NCBI GenBank assembly: GCA_029261855.1
Contig: JAJDAN010000066.1
Location: 124,001-188,000, forward strand
Length of the DNA stretch: 64,000 nucleotides
Direction: 5' to 3'
Origin: Deltaproteobacteria bacterium
GTDB lineage: Bacteria > Myxococcota_A > UBA9160 > UBA4427
Translations under genes and position numbers: made by a program
In this document: positions 22,386 through 33,879 of the stretch, piece after piece
How positions within the stretch are numbered: the stretch's first letter is position 1
Layout of the letters: each line of letters starts with the position of its first letter
Notes under the pieces: model-generated
Seen by the model: only the letters and a program-made list of their open reading frames with translations
Databases searched by the model: none
What the model was told of the DNA's origin: nothing

Positions 22386-22862
22386 CTATCCCTTCCTGTC
22401 CACGATCTTGCCCATGGCCTCAGCCGCGGCCTCGTCCTCCTCGTCGTGGCCAGGCAACCGGAGCCCGCGCCAGGTCCCACCCCGCAACTTGGAGGGCAGC
22501 GTCTCGCTCTCCTCACAGGTGTGGCATAGGTGAGTGCCTGTAGGCTTCCCGTGCTTGGTCAAGCGCGCCGTGGCCGCGGGGGCGCCACAAGCCTTGCAGT
22601 GCGGCCAGGAGGCTGGCCCGCGCTGGGCTACGGCCTCAGCCAGCACGCGCTGGCGCACCTCGGCGCCCATGACGCCCGAGGTGTAGATCCAGCCACGGTA
22701 GGCCGGGCTGGCGCGCAGGGTCTCCTCGAGCCACTGCTTGGGTGCCTTGGCCGGCAGGTCGAGGCCCAGCAGGTAGCCGAGGTGCAGCAGGTGCGGCTTG
22801 GTCATGGGGCGCCCTTCGTAGAGCGCCTCCGTCAACTCCATGGTCTCTTTCCACTCACCCAT
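22386..22862 (-). CDS. Zinc-ribbon protein with helical N-terminus (158 aa)
   Basis: ATG start. Helical first 90 residues (KPHLLHLGYLLGLDLPAKAP), then CKACGAPAATARLTKHGKPT followed by HLCHTCEES, a canonical zinc ribbon (about residues 88-117). The C-terminus is acidic and helical. Confidence 0.6.
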   Translation of the reverse strand: MGEWKETMELTEALYEGRPMTKPHLLHLGYLLGLDLPAKAPKQWLEETLRASPAYRGWIYTSGVMGAEVRQRVLAEAVAQRGPASWPHCKACGAPAATARLTKHGKPTGTHLCHTCEESETLPSKLRGGTWRGLRLPGHDEEDEAAAEAMGKIVDRKG

Positions 22863-22865
22863 GAT

Positions 22866-23432
22866 CTACCTCACCCTCAAGTGAACGTGCGGGCCGTCGT
22901 GTCCGTTGGGGAGGTTGCAGTTCCGGCCTGGGCCTGCCTTGGTGGGGGTCCCGCAGAAGCGAGACTCGACCTCCGCTTCCTCCTCGACCTCGACTTCGAC
23001 CTCCTCGTCGGTGTCGAAGTCCTCGATCCCCAGGAACGTGCGGACCGCCTCCCAGTGCTCGGGGCCGATCTCGGGCTTGAGGTCGATCAGTTCGGGGTTC
23101 TTGCACCGCGGCGCGCCGGTCGCCCACAGGCAGTGGGTCTGGTCGACCAGATACTGGTACCAGTCCCCGCTGAGCCCGGCGTCCGAGTCGCCGGTGTCGA
23201 GCATGCGCTCCACCAGCTCGCAGACCGCGTTGGTCCAGTCCTCGCGCTCCGAAACCCAGCGGCAGTCGCCGTCGTTGTAGAGCAGCCAGGGGCCCGCGTA
23301 GACGAGATCTCCCCTGGCCTGTCGGTCGTCGAGCCAGGTCTCGAACTTGTCGAGCAGGCCCAACGTCTTGGTCACGGCCTCGCGCCCAGCCGCGATCGCT
23401 TCGGTGTGCGTGCCCACGGTGCGGCCTACCAC
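22866..23432 (-). CDS. Hypothetical protein (188 aa)
   Basis: GTG start. Alpha/beta body with many Trp residues (VYAGPWLLYNDGDCRWVSER), an acidic tract encoded by GAG/GAC runs (DTDEEVEVEVEEEAEVE) and a C-terminal CG...C...H...H element (FCGTPTKAGPGRNCNLPNGH) known from phage zinc knuckles. No enzymatic motif. Confidence 0.6.
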   Translation of the reverse strand: MVGRTVGTHTEAIAAGREAVTKTLGLLDKFETWLDDRQARGDLVYAGPWLLYNDGDCRWVSEREDWTNAVCELVERMLDTGDSDAGLSGDWYQYLVDQTHCLWATGAPRCKNPELIDLKPEIGPEHWEAVRTFLGIEDFDTDEEVEVEVEEEAEVESRFCGTPTKAGPGRNCNLPNGHDGPHVHLRVR

Positions 23433-23911
23433 GTGTAGTGCTCTGCGCCGTCGAGGAGTGGTGCGTCCTGATCGAATCGCACCCAGGTGCAGCCTCGATC
23501 ACGGGCTGCCCTGAACACGTCGAGCATGCCCTGACTGGCCTCAGGCGGGTCGCAGTCGACCCCCAGCGGGTCGACGTGCACTTGCCACCCGTACTCCCAG
23601 GAGAGGTATGCCAGCAGAGGGTGTCCACCGCCCCCGAACTGGTCAGCCTCGGCCTTGGTGACGTGCGCGGTCGAGACCACGAGCACGCGATCCTCGTGGC
23701 GATCCTCCACCCACCGAGTCCGCAACCGCGTCTCCCCCTGGCCGTCCTTGAGCGCCACCGGCGTGGAGCCTCCGACGACCGAGTTCGAGAAGCGCCGGAG
23801 CAGCGCCCCAAGCACGTCCGGGTGTTCGTTGCGTGGGTCGCTGAGATCGACCTCGATCAGCAACTTGCGCGTGCGGGTTGGCGGCGACGTGGTAGGTTCA
23901 GTCCTGGTCAT
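23426..23911 (-). CDS. Hypothetical protein (161 aa)
   Basis: ATG start. Alpha/beta: a first strand LLIEVDLSDPRNE, GVDCDPPEASQGMLDVFRAA, and terminal strand CTWVRFDQDAPLL. Overlaps the next gene by 7 bases. No recognised family. Confidence 0.55.
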   Translation of the reverse strand: MTRTEPTTSPPTRTRKLLIEVDLSDPRNEHPDVLGALLRRFSNSVVGGSTPVALKDGQGETRLRTRWVEDRHEDRVLVVSTAHVTKAEADQFGGGGHPLLAYLSWEYGWQVHVDPLGVDCDPPEASQGMLDVFRAARDRGCTWVRFDQDAPLLDGAEHYTW

Positions 23912-23944
23912 ACTTCAACTCCTAAATTAGCGGTTGTGTGATCT

Positions 23945-23966
23945 GGCCCCGGGTGACGCCGGGGCC
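23945..23966. terminator. GC hairpin with T-rich tail
   Basis: GGCCCCGG (23945-23952) pairs with CCGGGGCC (23959-23966) around GTGACG; TCTTCTT follows on the plus strand. It lies between two minus genes, so it could terminate leftward transcription from the Ala-rich gene only weakly, or stop rightward antisense transcription. Confidence 0.45.
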
Positions 23967-23997
23967 TCTTCTTGTACTACACCGAGCGCTGCGCGAA

Positions 23998-24033
23998 GCA
24001 GTGCGGCTCGTGTCGCCTCTTGCGGTAGAGGCG
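23998..24033 (-). pseudogene. Duplicated fragment of the 24687-24944 gene
   Basis: 36 bases here match 24720-24755 with one mismatch. In the minus frame they read RLYRKRRHEPHC, as in the C-terminal part of the 85-aa zinc protein (RLYRERRHEPHC). The frame closes at a TAG at 23977-23979. There is no start, so this is a leftover of a partial duplication beyond the Ala-rich gene. Confidence 0.5.
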
Positions 24034-24049
24034 GTCCTTTGAGGCTGGC

Positions 24050-24686
<637 letters not shown>

Positions 24687-29955: not shown

Positions 29956-31497
29956 GTCGAGGATCCCAAACCTCCTCGCAGGCATTCATGTGCAACCCCT
30001 CCTTCGTGTCGAGGAGCCTAAGCCTCCCCGCAGGCATTCCGTCGAGGATCTCCAGCCTCCTCACAGGCATAAGCGCCAGAGGGATTCGTCGAGGGGCACC
30101 GGCCCCCTCGCAGGCATTCACACACGCCCCTCGTGCACGCTTCGTGCGACGCGGAGGCTTCGTCGAGGATCCTCAGCCCCCCGCAGGCATTCATATTGCC
30201 CCCATGAACTGCACGACTGGTCGGTCGCGTCGAGGATCTCCAGCCCCCTCGCAGGCATTCAGCACTACACATTCGAGCCGTCGAGGAACCTCAGCCCCCT
30301 CGCAGGCATTCACACTCTGGACGGGTCGAGGATCCTCAGCCCCCTCGCAGGCATTCACACACCCAGGACCTCGCCCTAAGGACGTGGACTCTCCGGTCGA
30401 GGATCCTCAGCCCCCCCCGCAAGCATTCACACTGCTCAACAACTCCGGAGTGAGGCTGAGCTGCGGCGAGTCGAGGATCCTCAGCCTCCCCGCAGGCATT
30501 CACACAGGCAAGTAGCCGTCGGGGCTCATGGCCCAGGGGCGGTCGAGGATCCTCAGCCTCCCCGCAGGCATTCACACCGCGCTCTCGATCAGGCGGACGT
30601 TGGACTCCACCTCGTCGAGGATCCTCAGCCTCCCCGCAGGCCTCGTCGAGGATCCTCAGCCTCCCCGCAGGCATTCACACGCGGGGGCACCGCCCCCTGC
30701 AACCGCGTGCCTTGGGGTCGAGGAACCTCAGCCTCCCCGCAGGCATTCACACTCAGAACCGCTCGCCCTCAGCGCGGTCGCCGAGGCTGTCGAGGAACTT
30801 CAGCCTCCCCGCAGGCATTCACACGTGCAGGAGGCCGTGGCCAATTTCCGCCTGGATCCTCCGCCCCAGTCGAGGAACCTCAGCCCCCCTCGCAGGCATT
30901 CACACGAGGCCCGTCACCGATCACCCCTGGCTCCTCGTCCTACAGGTGTCGAGGAACCTCAGCCCCCTCGCAGGCATTCACACGGGAGGTACCCGATCCA
31001 GATCACGGGCCCGAGAACGTTTTGTCGAGGAGCCTCAGCCCCCTCGCAGGCATTCACACCTCAGAACCGCTCGCCGCCGAGGGTGTTGGGGTCCTCGTCG
31101 AGGAACCTCAGCCCCCTCGCAGGCATTCACACCTCGTCATGGCCGAGCGGCTGTCGTACTGCCTGTACGTCATGTCGAGGAACTTCAGCCCCCTCGCAGG
31201 CATTCACACATGCGGTCACGCCGGACCGCCTCGCCCCACAGCTCAGCGTGGTCGAGAAACCTCAGCCCCCTCGCAGGCATTCACACGTCTGCTCACTCAT
31301 GCTCGCCCCGCAGGTCGAGGAACCTCAGCCCCCTCGCAGGCATTCACACCGGCCAAACGGGAGGCGGGAGGTCCCCCTGTGCCTCGTCGAGGAACCTCAG
31401 CCCCCTCGCAGGCATTCACACTTGTAGTCGCCAACAGCAGGAACGGCCTGGTCCAGACGCAGTCGAGGAACCTCAGCCCCCTCGCAGGCATTCACAC
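29956..31497 (-). CRISPR. CRISPR array, 24 repeat units
   Basis: The 36-bp repeat reads on the plus strand GTCGAGGAACCTCAG at its start and GCAGGCATTCACAC at its end. Unit starts: 29956, 30008, 30041, 30088, 30162, 30229, 30280, 30325, 30396, 30470, 30542, 30614, 30645, 30717, 30789, 30869, 30948, 31024, 31097, 31174, 31251, 31314, 31386, 31462. The units nearest the Cas12 gene (31097 onward) are almost identical; those on the left are degenerate. The leader is therefore on the right and transcription is on the minus strand, like cas12. In that sense the repeat ends GAC and can form the stem CGAGG/CCTCG. Spacers are 35-44 bp near the leader, but some distal ones are 9-16 bp and two are missing (30041 and 30645 units). 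Confidence 0.97.
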
Positions 31498-31635
31498 TGC
31501 AGCGCTCACAACCCGCAACCAAACTTGCGGTTGTGCGTTTCAATTCGAGCGCTGCGTCTCGATCTCCGAATTGACAAACAACGACACGGGCTCCTGGTCG
31601 TAAACCCATGGCCATTCTGACGCGAGCCCTGCCAG
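31498..31635 (-). promoter_or_regulatory. CRISPR leader region with two stem-loops
   Basis: The 138 bases between the first repeat and the Cas12 stop hold an 11-bp hairpin with one bulge (arms 31507-31518 and 31525-31535) that abuts the array, and a 7-bp hairpin CAATTCG/CGAATTG (31541-31547 and 31567-31573). Position and orientation fit the leader. The structures could also belong to a small RNA, as type V-C uses a scoutRNA; no anti-repeat longer than a few bases was seen. Confidence 0.55.
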
Positions 31636-33879
31636 CTACTCCGCGGCCACCGGCTCGCTCGACTGCCGGTCGAACACCGACGTGGCGCCGGTAATCGCAC
31701 GCAACGCCTCAGCTCGGCGCTGGGCACGGTTGGGTGGCGCGTTGCGGTTGAGACTGAAGATCTCGTCCGGCGACACTGGAGGGCGAGTCCACGTGGGCTG
31801 AGGGCCACCGCCGTCTCGCAGGAGGTTCCGGGCCGCGTTGACGTCCTGGTCCCACTCGAGATCGCACGAGGGGCAGCGGTGGCACAACTCGCTGTGGTCG
31901 TCCCAGTCCTTGTCCACGGCCTGGCAGGCATGGCAGCGCATGGTGGTGAACTCAGGCTTGACCATGACCAACTCCCGGTCACGAACTCGGTTCTTCAGCG
32001 CGTCGCGGAGGTAGGAGAGGGCAGCCCAGCCGTTGTAGAGACGGAGGACCCGGTCCGCGGCCACTCGCACCGGGTCGTTGCCGGTGTACGGACGAAAGAA
32101 CTTCGAGAGGTTGAGGTCCTCGATCACGACCTGGGCGTAGCGCTTGGTGAGGTAGGCCGCGAGACGACGGTAGAGATCCTTGCGACTGCCCTGGAGTTGG
32201 CTCCAGAGGTGGTCCTGATACTCGTGGAGGTGCCGCTCGCGGTGGACCCAGTCCATGATCTTCTTGGGGGCCTTGCAGCCGGCCTTGATCCCGCGCTGGA
32301 TATGCCGAATCACGCGCTGGGCCCCAGAGGTGTGGTTGATCGACCGATCCTTCTCGTGTGGGTTGGGGCGCCCGTCCCACCACCGCTTGGTCCACTTCAG
32401 GATCTCGGGGACCGCTCGGTTCTTGCAGCGGTCGCGGTAGGCCTGGATACGCCTGACGCGGAAGGCCTCCTCCAGCCACCAAGCCGGAAGCGCGACCTCC
32501 CCCTCGTGCCCGTCGGAGCCGGCCCACACTGCCACGCGCAGCCGGCGGTCCTCCATGAGCTTCCAACCGAGGTCGAGCGCCACCGATCCCGTGGTGGCGA
32601 GGTCGGACTTGTTCCAGCTCGGGGCCTCGAGGACGAAGTGGAGGGTCCACACGTCGCGCAGGCCGCGCTCACGGCGGATCAGGTAGATCCACTTGATCTT
32701 GGCCTGAGGCGGAATGGGCCGGTGGTAGACGAACTGCACCTCAGCCCAGACCCCCCTGTTGCTCTTCTTCAGCCCCCCTTGCTGGTTCTCGCGCAACTCG
32801 GACCCCACGCGCAGGCGCAGGTGCCCTTGCAGTCGACGCTCGCCGGCCTTGGACCCAGCCACGGCGCCAGGACGCCTGGAGAACTTCAACTGGGCCTGCC
32901 CATGTGGACTCCAGTCCGCCACGGTCAACTCGTTGATCGTGGCGCCCCCTTGGATCTGGACGGCGAACTTGTCCTTGCGCTGGTGCCAGGGCCTGAACCC
33001 AGGCGCAGACCCCTCGGCCATGCTTTGGGAGGCGGCGCCGACCTGCGCCAGGACCCCCCACCCCATGTCGATCACACGGGTGTCGCCGTCCTCGGGAGCG
33101 AACCTCTCGACGTAGCGGTCGACAGTCTCCCACCGTGCTGCGCGCTGCTTGGAGGTGGTGTCGTCCCAGATCTTCTGGCTGGCCTCGATCCAACGCTCAG
33201 ACTCGTAGAGCTTGACGCTCAGCTTCTGACGCTCCTCCTGCAGTGCCGCGAGCTTGGCGTAGAGACCCGTGGGCTTCTTCTCGTCGACCCCTTTCTCAGG
33301 ATCCGCCTTGCGGCCTTTCATGCCGATCTTGTCGGCGTCCTTCTTGTTGCCGGCCTTGGCGTCCGCGCGTCGCTGCTTGACCCCGGCGTTGTACTCGGGG
33401 GTGCGCTTGCTCTTCGGCAGTGGCTTCCCGCCGTAGATCGCCTGGTTCCTGGCGGCGATCGCGACCTTGAGGGTGGCGATCTCGCCCAGGAGGCCGGTGG
33501 CTGGCTTGGCCTGGATCGCCTTCTCCTCGTCCGCCTTGACCGCGCGCTCGCCGACCTTCTCCTCGATAGCGACCAGGGCCGGTGAGAGCTTGAACTTGAG
33601 AGCGCGGAGAGCCGTCCGCCGACTGCGGTCGATCTCCACCATGCTGTTCCGGTAGTTGTGAGCCAGCCAGAACTGCTCACGAAGCAGTGCGAGGTCACGG
33701 CCCCTGGGAGTGAGAGCGCCGTACTGGAACGTGATTCCCTCCCCCTTCATGCGAGCTGGCTTGCCGCCCTCTCGCTCGAAGCGGGCCTTGGCGGCCTCGC
33801 TCCTGGAGAGCTTCGGCTTCTCCTGCTTCTTGGGGCGCTTGGCCTTCTTGGCCTTCTTGGCCGTCGTCTTGGTCGTCAT
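31636..33879 (-). CDS. Cas12 type V CRISPR effector, Cas12m/Cas12c-like
   Basis: 747 aa from the ATG at 33879, preceded by GCAGAGGAGAGTCT. A longer frame to 34053 is rejected because it overlaps the zinc gene. A basic N-terminus (MTTKTTAKKAKKAKRPKK) leads into residues 49-83 (ITFQYGALTP, REQFWLAHNYRNSMVEI), which strongly resemble the start of Cas12m proteins. RuvC-I is VALDLGWKLM with Asp436, followed as in Cas12c/m by RLRVAVW. RuvC-II is VVIEDLNLSKF with Glu587. A TnpB-type zinc ribbon has C649/C652 and C669/C672. RuvC-III is DQDVNAARNLL with Asp679. All three catalytic acids are present, unlike some Cas12m proteins with altered sites. It should process or bind crRNA and recognise DNA; whether it cuts DNA or only blocks transcription cannot be read. 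No Cas1, Cas2 or Cas4 lies in the window. Phage-borne Cas-mu is another possible assignment. Confidence 0.93.
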   Translation of the reverse strand: MTTKTTAKKAKKAKRPKKQEKPKLSRSEAAKARFEREGGKPARMKGEGITFQYGALTPRGRDLALLREQFWLAHNYRNSMVEIDRSRRTALRALKFKLSPALVAIEEKVGERAVKADEEKAIQAKPATGLLGEIATLKVAIAARNQAIYGGKPLPKSKRTPEYNAGVKQRRADAKAGNKKDADKIGMKGRKADPEKGVDEKKPTGLYAKLAALQEERQKLSVKLYESERWIEASQKIWDDTTSKQRAARWETVDRYVERFAPEDGDTRVIDMGWGVLAQVGAASQSMAEGSAPGFRPWHQRKDKFAVQIQGGATINELTVADWSPHGQAQLKFSRRPGAVAGSKAGERRLQGHLRLRVGSELRENQQGGLKKSNRGVWAEVQFVYHRPIPPQAKIKWIYLIRRERGLRDVWTLHFVLEAPSWNKSDLATTGSVALDLGWKLMEDRRLRVAVWAGSDGHEGEVALPAWWLEEAFRVRRIQAYRDRCKNRAVPEILKWTKRWWDGRPNPHEKDRSINHTSGAQRVIRHIQRGIKAGCKAPKKIMDWVHRERHLHEYQDHLWSQLQGSRKDLYRRLAAYLTKRYAQVVIEDLNLSKFFRPYTGNDPVRVAADRVLRLYNGWAALSYLRDALKNRVRDRELVMVKPEFTTMRCHACQAVDKDWDDHSELCHRCPSCDLEWDQDVNAARNLLRDGGGPQPTWTRPPVSPDEIFSLNRNAPPNRAQRRAEALRAITGATSVFDRQSSEPVAAE

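Follow-up and report, generated by a model that had tools for sequence, protein, structure and literature searches.

Two spacers of one CRISPR array share 15 bases and, on the complementary strand, both read as the last codons of a gene, which raises the question of where this common end comes from and whether it is what the guides recognize. The array lies in a window of 64 kb, by which we mean the whole stretch of DNA analyzed, and the features concerned are the following:

29956..31497, crRNA on the minus strand: CRISPR array of 24 repeat units, with a degenerate trailer at the low-coordinate end.
31498..31635, minus strand: presumed leader, reaching from the effector stop codon to the first repeat and adjoining intact repeats.
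31636..33879, minus strand: gene for a Cas12m/Cas12u1-like effector of 747 aa with a RuvC D-E-D site and a zinc ribbon.
31060..31096, minus strand: spacer 6, counted from the leader, GAGGACCCCAACACCCTCGGCGGCGAGCGGTTCTGAG, translating as EDPNTLGGERF-stop.
31061..31075, minus strand: shared 15-mer GGCGAGCGGTTCTGA in spacer 6, spacer positions 22-36, PAM-distal.
30753..30788, minus strand: spacer 10, counted from the leader, AGCCTCGGCGACCGCGCTGAGGGCGAGCGGTTCTGA, translating as SLGDRAEGERF-stop.
30753..30767, minus strand: shared 15-mer GGCGAGCGGTTCTGA in spacer 10, spacer positions 22-36, PAM-distal.

The contig that carries the system, C66, has a length of 190,544 bp (190.5 kb) and a perfect 71-nt terminal repeat, and therefore probably represents a circular element. 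Densely packed short genes of unknown function are found on it together with replication genes of phage type, an integrase, ParB and proteins homologous to those of phages, but as neither a terminase nor a capsid gene was found on it, 'phage-like' is as far as the label can be taken. Also encoded on C66, at 22719-24350 on the minus strand, is a 543-aa open reading frame in which a LAGLIDADG-like domain is fused to a Mom-like DNA-modification domain. The effector itself is homologous to Cas12u1 in PADLOC (E 1.2e-62) and to the Cas12m entry 23vw of the PDB (E 1.5e-36), and possesses the RuvC domain and zinc ribbon that characterize type V-M effectors. Its D-E-D motifs read DLGW, VVIEDLN and WDQDVNAA, and in an alignment with the Cas12m proteins of Virus Rctr197k and Meiothermus silvanus the invariant DLGW/E/DQD residues and the zinc-finger cysteines are intact. 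Cas1 is not encoded anywhere in the MAG, and the effector is accordingly unaccompanied by adaptation genes, as in type V-M. Judged by these sequence features, the array and its effector are a divergent, larger member of type V-M (Cas12m); a pattern search built from this single sequence retrieved no relatives of the effector from IMG/VR or the GTDB contigs.

The repeats of the array are 36 nt long, GTCGAGGAACCTCAGCCCCCTCGCAGGCATTCACAC or, in the minus-strand form, GTGTGAATGCCTGCGAGGGGGCTGAGGTTCCTCGAC, and as they degenerate toward position 29956 the leader end is assigned to the effector side. Units near the trailer are shortened, and at 30614-30644 lies a truncated repeat that has no spacer and is repeated exactly, over 31 nt, in the adjacent next unit, which testifies to a rearrangement inside the array. 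The order of effector followed by array is also found in Rctr197k and M. silvanus. The solved crRNA scaffold of Cas12m2 consists of a stem, a pseudoknot and A(-2)C(-1) (PMC10442227), and the minus-strand repeat likewise combines a stem and a pseudoknot with an A(-2)C(-1) ending, as expected of a V-M crRNA. Across the repeat variants, 100% of the cells in the stem (9-12/19-22) and the pseudoknot (14-18/30-34) are paired on the minus strand, versus 87.7% at the same positions on the plus strand, and a crRNA from the plus strand was rejected on these counts. The five pseudoknot pairs occupy identical columns in the repeats of Rctr197k and M. silvanus, where three of the five are altered on both sides with respect to our array, in a compensatory manner. 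Pairing counts, covariation in the pseudoknot and the fit to the Cas12m2 scaffold together indicate that the guide strand is very probably the minus strand, and the shared bases consequently fall on guide positions 22-36, at the PAM-distal end.

This placement bears directly on what the guides read. In the solved Cas12m complex the guide pairs over 17 bp (PMC10442227), and a guide readout of 18 bp has been described for Cas12m (PMC11013384). The predicted reading portions of spacers 6 and 10, positions 1-17, are unrelated to each other. Since the shared bases are PAM-distal and lie past the 17-18 bp that known Cas12m proteins use, they are probably not themselves the recognized part, by analogy with those proteins. 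Should the larger effector behave alike, the shared part would be incidental for recognition, although not for the origin of the spacers.

The preliminary description had given the boundaries of both spacers and their common TCAGAACCGCTCGCC exactly, and its minus-strand readings SLGDRAEGERF-stop and EDPNTLGGERF-stop were reproduced by translation. Throughout the 64 kb window and the 6.96 Mb genome TCAGAACCGCTCGCC occurs only at 30753-30767 and 31061-31075, and the longest word common to any other pair among the 17 full-length spacers has 9 nt. That chance accounts for the match is very improbable. The G+C content of 66% does make common words more frequent, but a 15-mer common to two of 17 spacers arose in just 10 of 20000 trials with shuffled spacers and in 21 of 20000 with fragments drawn at random from the same contig, corresponding to a chance probability of about 0.0005-0.001, and the two copies moreover keep the same register relative to the repeat. 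Measured to the last base of the stop codon, both spacers have the same start distance, 36 nt, and spacer 6 carries one additional base between the shared block and the repeat. Past the 15 nt the similarity fails: in the unshared portions 6 of 21 positions are identical, which is the chance level, and the peptides SLGDRAE (spacer 10) and EDPNTLG (spacer 6) are unrelated.

In order to assess the reading as gene ends, each spacer's 21 bases outside the shared block were scored alone for coding frame with the codon usage of C66. In both cases the best coding frame is the one that runs into the TGA, with coding-score p values against random sequence of 0.019 and 0.0026 for the two spacers, and the same behavior is shown by 53% of real gene ends versus 15% of random sequence. 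Because the unshared halves score as coding in the stop frame, two real gene ends are favored over a random chimera. The proposal that the two spacers derive from the ends of two related genes is thus plausible in its first part, given these coding halves and a sharing beyond chance, and the gene-end reading of spacers 6 and 10 is moderately supported by sequence; the relatedness of the genes, in contrast, finds no counterpart upstream of GERF, where the two are unlike. Note that the agreement in codon choice over GGC GAG CGG TTC TGA would, judged from the codon usage of C66, have a probability of a few per cent if the choices were independent. The identity at the DNA level exceeds what conservation of the protein would need, and a DNA segment shared in recent times, or an element acting at the DNA level, therefore likely lies behind these codons.

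A search for targets gave no accepted protospacer and hence no flanks in which to look for a 5' T- or C-rich PAM. The suggested repeated targeting of one conserved gene in different rivals would call for protospacers in homologous gene ends, of which the collections below yielded none. With the whole array as the query, matches in phage records had E values of 0.5 or worse and were taken as chance, and matches in plasmid records were at 0.4 or worse, save for one to the repeat itself, a near-exact 26-nt match in a Pseudomonas aeruginosa plasmid gene (NZ_CP017294.1, 242152-242177; E 0.04) that is probably due to chance. IMG/VR, queried with patterns for the shared end and for codon-degenerate spacers 6, 7, 10 and 12, contained no protospacer, nor did the genome_contigs collection in a pattern search for spacer 6 or the MAG itself. 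Among 91 class-level genomes there were two weak matches (28/36 and 27/36), both dismissed as fortuitous after inspection.

A gene end of the kind in question does exist elsewhere. In IMG/VR, two phages of ~250 kb that are related to each other have a gene without a known function that ends in GGCGAGCGGTTCTGAG, with the identical 16 bases, and homologs in the Streptomyces phages Satis, Kradal, EhyElimayoE, Quantum and Frankenweenie match through the gene end, which in the two that were read, Satis and Frankenweenie, is WDGKRF-stop. The small gene (L046 1724-2479, minus strand; L047 11170-12090; Satis gene 304) belongs to high-GC phages of ~186-260 kb, and in this family IDWDG[E/K]RF-stop is followed by a conserved GGTGCGTTCG and a terminator-like hairpin, kept as DNA. 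As a target the SATIS_304 family was rejected: it has DIDWD ahead of GERF and neither SLGDRAE nor EDPNTLG, the end is the sole one of its type in Satis, and C66 has no homolog. Out of three independent occurrences, a single match of the GGCGAGCGGTTCTGAG type does not stand out clearly from chance, and the family serves only as a precedent that such ends exist in large high-GC phages.

The main rival explanation places the event inside the array, where illegitimate recombination or a template switch would have copied the 15 bases from one spacer into the other, overwriting its 3' half and the beginning of the adjoining repeat, so that only one spacer keeps its natural end. The shared block does abut the repeat, apart from the extra base in spacer 6, its junction is sharp, and the array bears other traces of rearrangement in the spacerless truncated repeat and the shortened trailer units. 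Such copying would, however, require a non-homologous junction plus a 1-nt indel, the repeat after spacer 6 is of a different subtype from the one after spacer 10, and both unshared halves code in the frame of the shared end, which a random chimera would achieve about once in six; we regard it as unlikely. A second rival, also unlikely and slightly more so, holds that the 15 bases belong to an element conserved as DNA where two genes meet, such as the translation start of a conserved gene lying downstream or the stretch leading into a terminator; shuffling of phage modules would then have made the upstream genes unrelated, and the downstream gene or the junction would be the common target. Full DNA identity over four codons and the stop next to unrelated upstream sequence is what such an element would produce, and the Satis-like family keeps its 3' end, GCCGGTGCGTTCG and a hairpin at the DNA level. 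Yet in Satis the element is present at a single gene, no protospacer turned up in the collections searched, and the spacers end at the TGA or one base past it, so that anything downstream is invisible.

Several other spacers of the array are of note here. Spacer 3 (31287-31313) resembles a gene start, GGGGCGAGCATGAGTGAGCAG, as does spacer 15 (30361-30395) on the opposite strand, CTAAGGACGTGGAC, and spacer 11 (30681-30716) contains a terminator-like GGGGGC-GGT-GCCCCC hairpin. Spacers 3 and 15 may indicate that gene boundaries are straddled by several spacers of the array. The broader proposal that the array mostly takes its spacers at such boundaries, with stops in spacers 6 and 10 and starts in 3 and 15, and that both guides of the GERF pair sit at one and the same conserved gene end in large phages that compete, appears quite improbable to us.

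We consequently lean, with modest confidence, toward reading spacers 6 and 10 as 3' gene ends that were captured in two separate events by an ordinary type V-M array of a mobile element. This reading is supported by the sharing beyond chance, the halves that code in the stop frame, the equal start distance of 36 nt and the existence of GERF-stop gene ends with 16 identical bases in phages of ~250 kb. It is weakened by the abrupt break in identity from 15/15 to 6/21, unusual for simple homologous genes, by the lack of a protospacer in any searched collection, by a MAG without the cas1 to make new spacers, and by the residues ahead of GERF in the phage gene that was found, which differ from both spacers. 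In the mechanism that we propose, a V-M-like (Cas12m) system without cas1/cas2 on a circular-looking, phage-like element of 190.5 kb would transcribe its array on the minus strand, starting at the effector side. Spacers 6 and 10 would each represent the 3' end of a gene, the two genes having their last 15 bases (GERF-stop) in common and being either divergent relatives or joined onto one common end segment. The two crRNAs would then recognize different sequences, and the GERF-stop bases would fall PAM-distally, in the part that does not pair. Cas12m binds without cleavage (PMC10442227, PMC11013384), and tested members with a D-E-D site did not cleave (PMC11013384); by analogy with these characterized proteins, the D-E-D members included, the present effector may bind its target and block transcription instead of cutting.

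At present, the locus records a divergent and larger Cas12m on an element of ~190 kb, and the assignment of the crRNA strand tells which end of a spacer matters. If targets were found, the pair would reveal the aim of a phage-borne, binding-only Cas12m system and tell whether arrays on such elements sample one gene repeatedly. Spacers at gene boundaries, if real, would be well matched to an effector that only binds and thereby blocks transcription.

Among known systems, the V-M (formerly V-U1) Cas12m proteins of M. silvanus, Gordonia otitidis and Mycolicibacterium mucogenicum are homologous to the effector over the WED, RuvC and zinc ribbon regions. They share with it the D-E-D site, the absence of cas1/cas2 and a 36-nt repeat with an AC end and identical pseudoknot columns, and in M. 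silvanus the array is likewise downstream of the effector gene. The effector described here is larger, however, with 747 aa versus about 540-610 aa owing to extra N-terminal and REC segments, the identity is only about 30%, and the system resides on a phage-like element of 190 kb. Among phage records, Virus Rctr197k (KX853510) with its type V-U-like array comes nearest; its effector is about 28-31% identical. This virus of ~200 kb has the array directly downstream of the effector, a degenerate trailer and the same pseudoknot, but a different repeat sequence and different spacers, and its cleanly parsed spacers show no such shared end; a second annotated CRISPR (L022 463-717) is found beside another gene annotated as transposase-like. 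New V-U variants have also been reported from huge phages (Al-Shayeb et al. 2020; PMC7162821), and our system resembles these in that a large phage-like genome carries an effector and an array but no acquisition genes.
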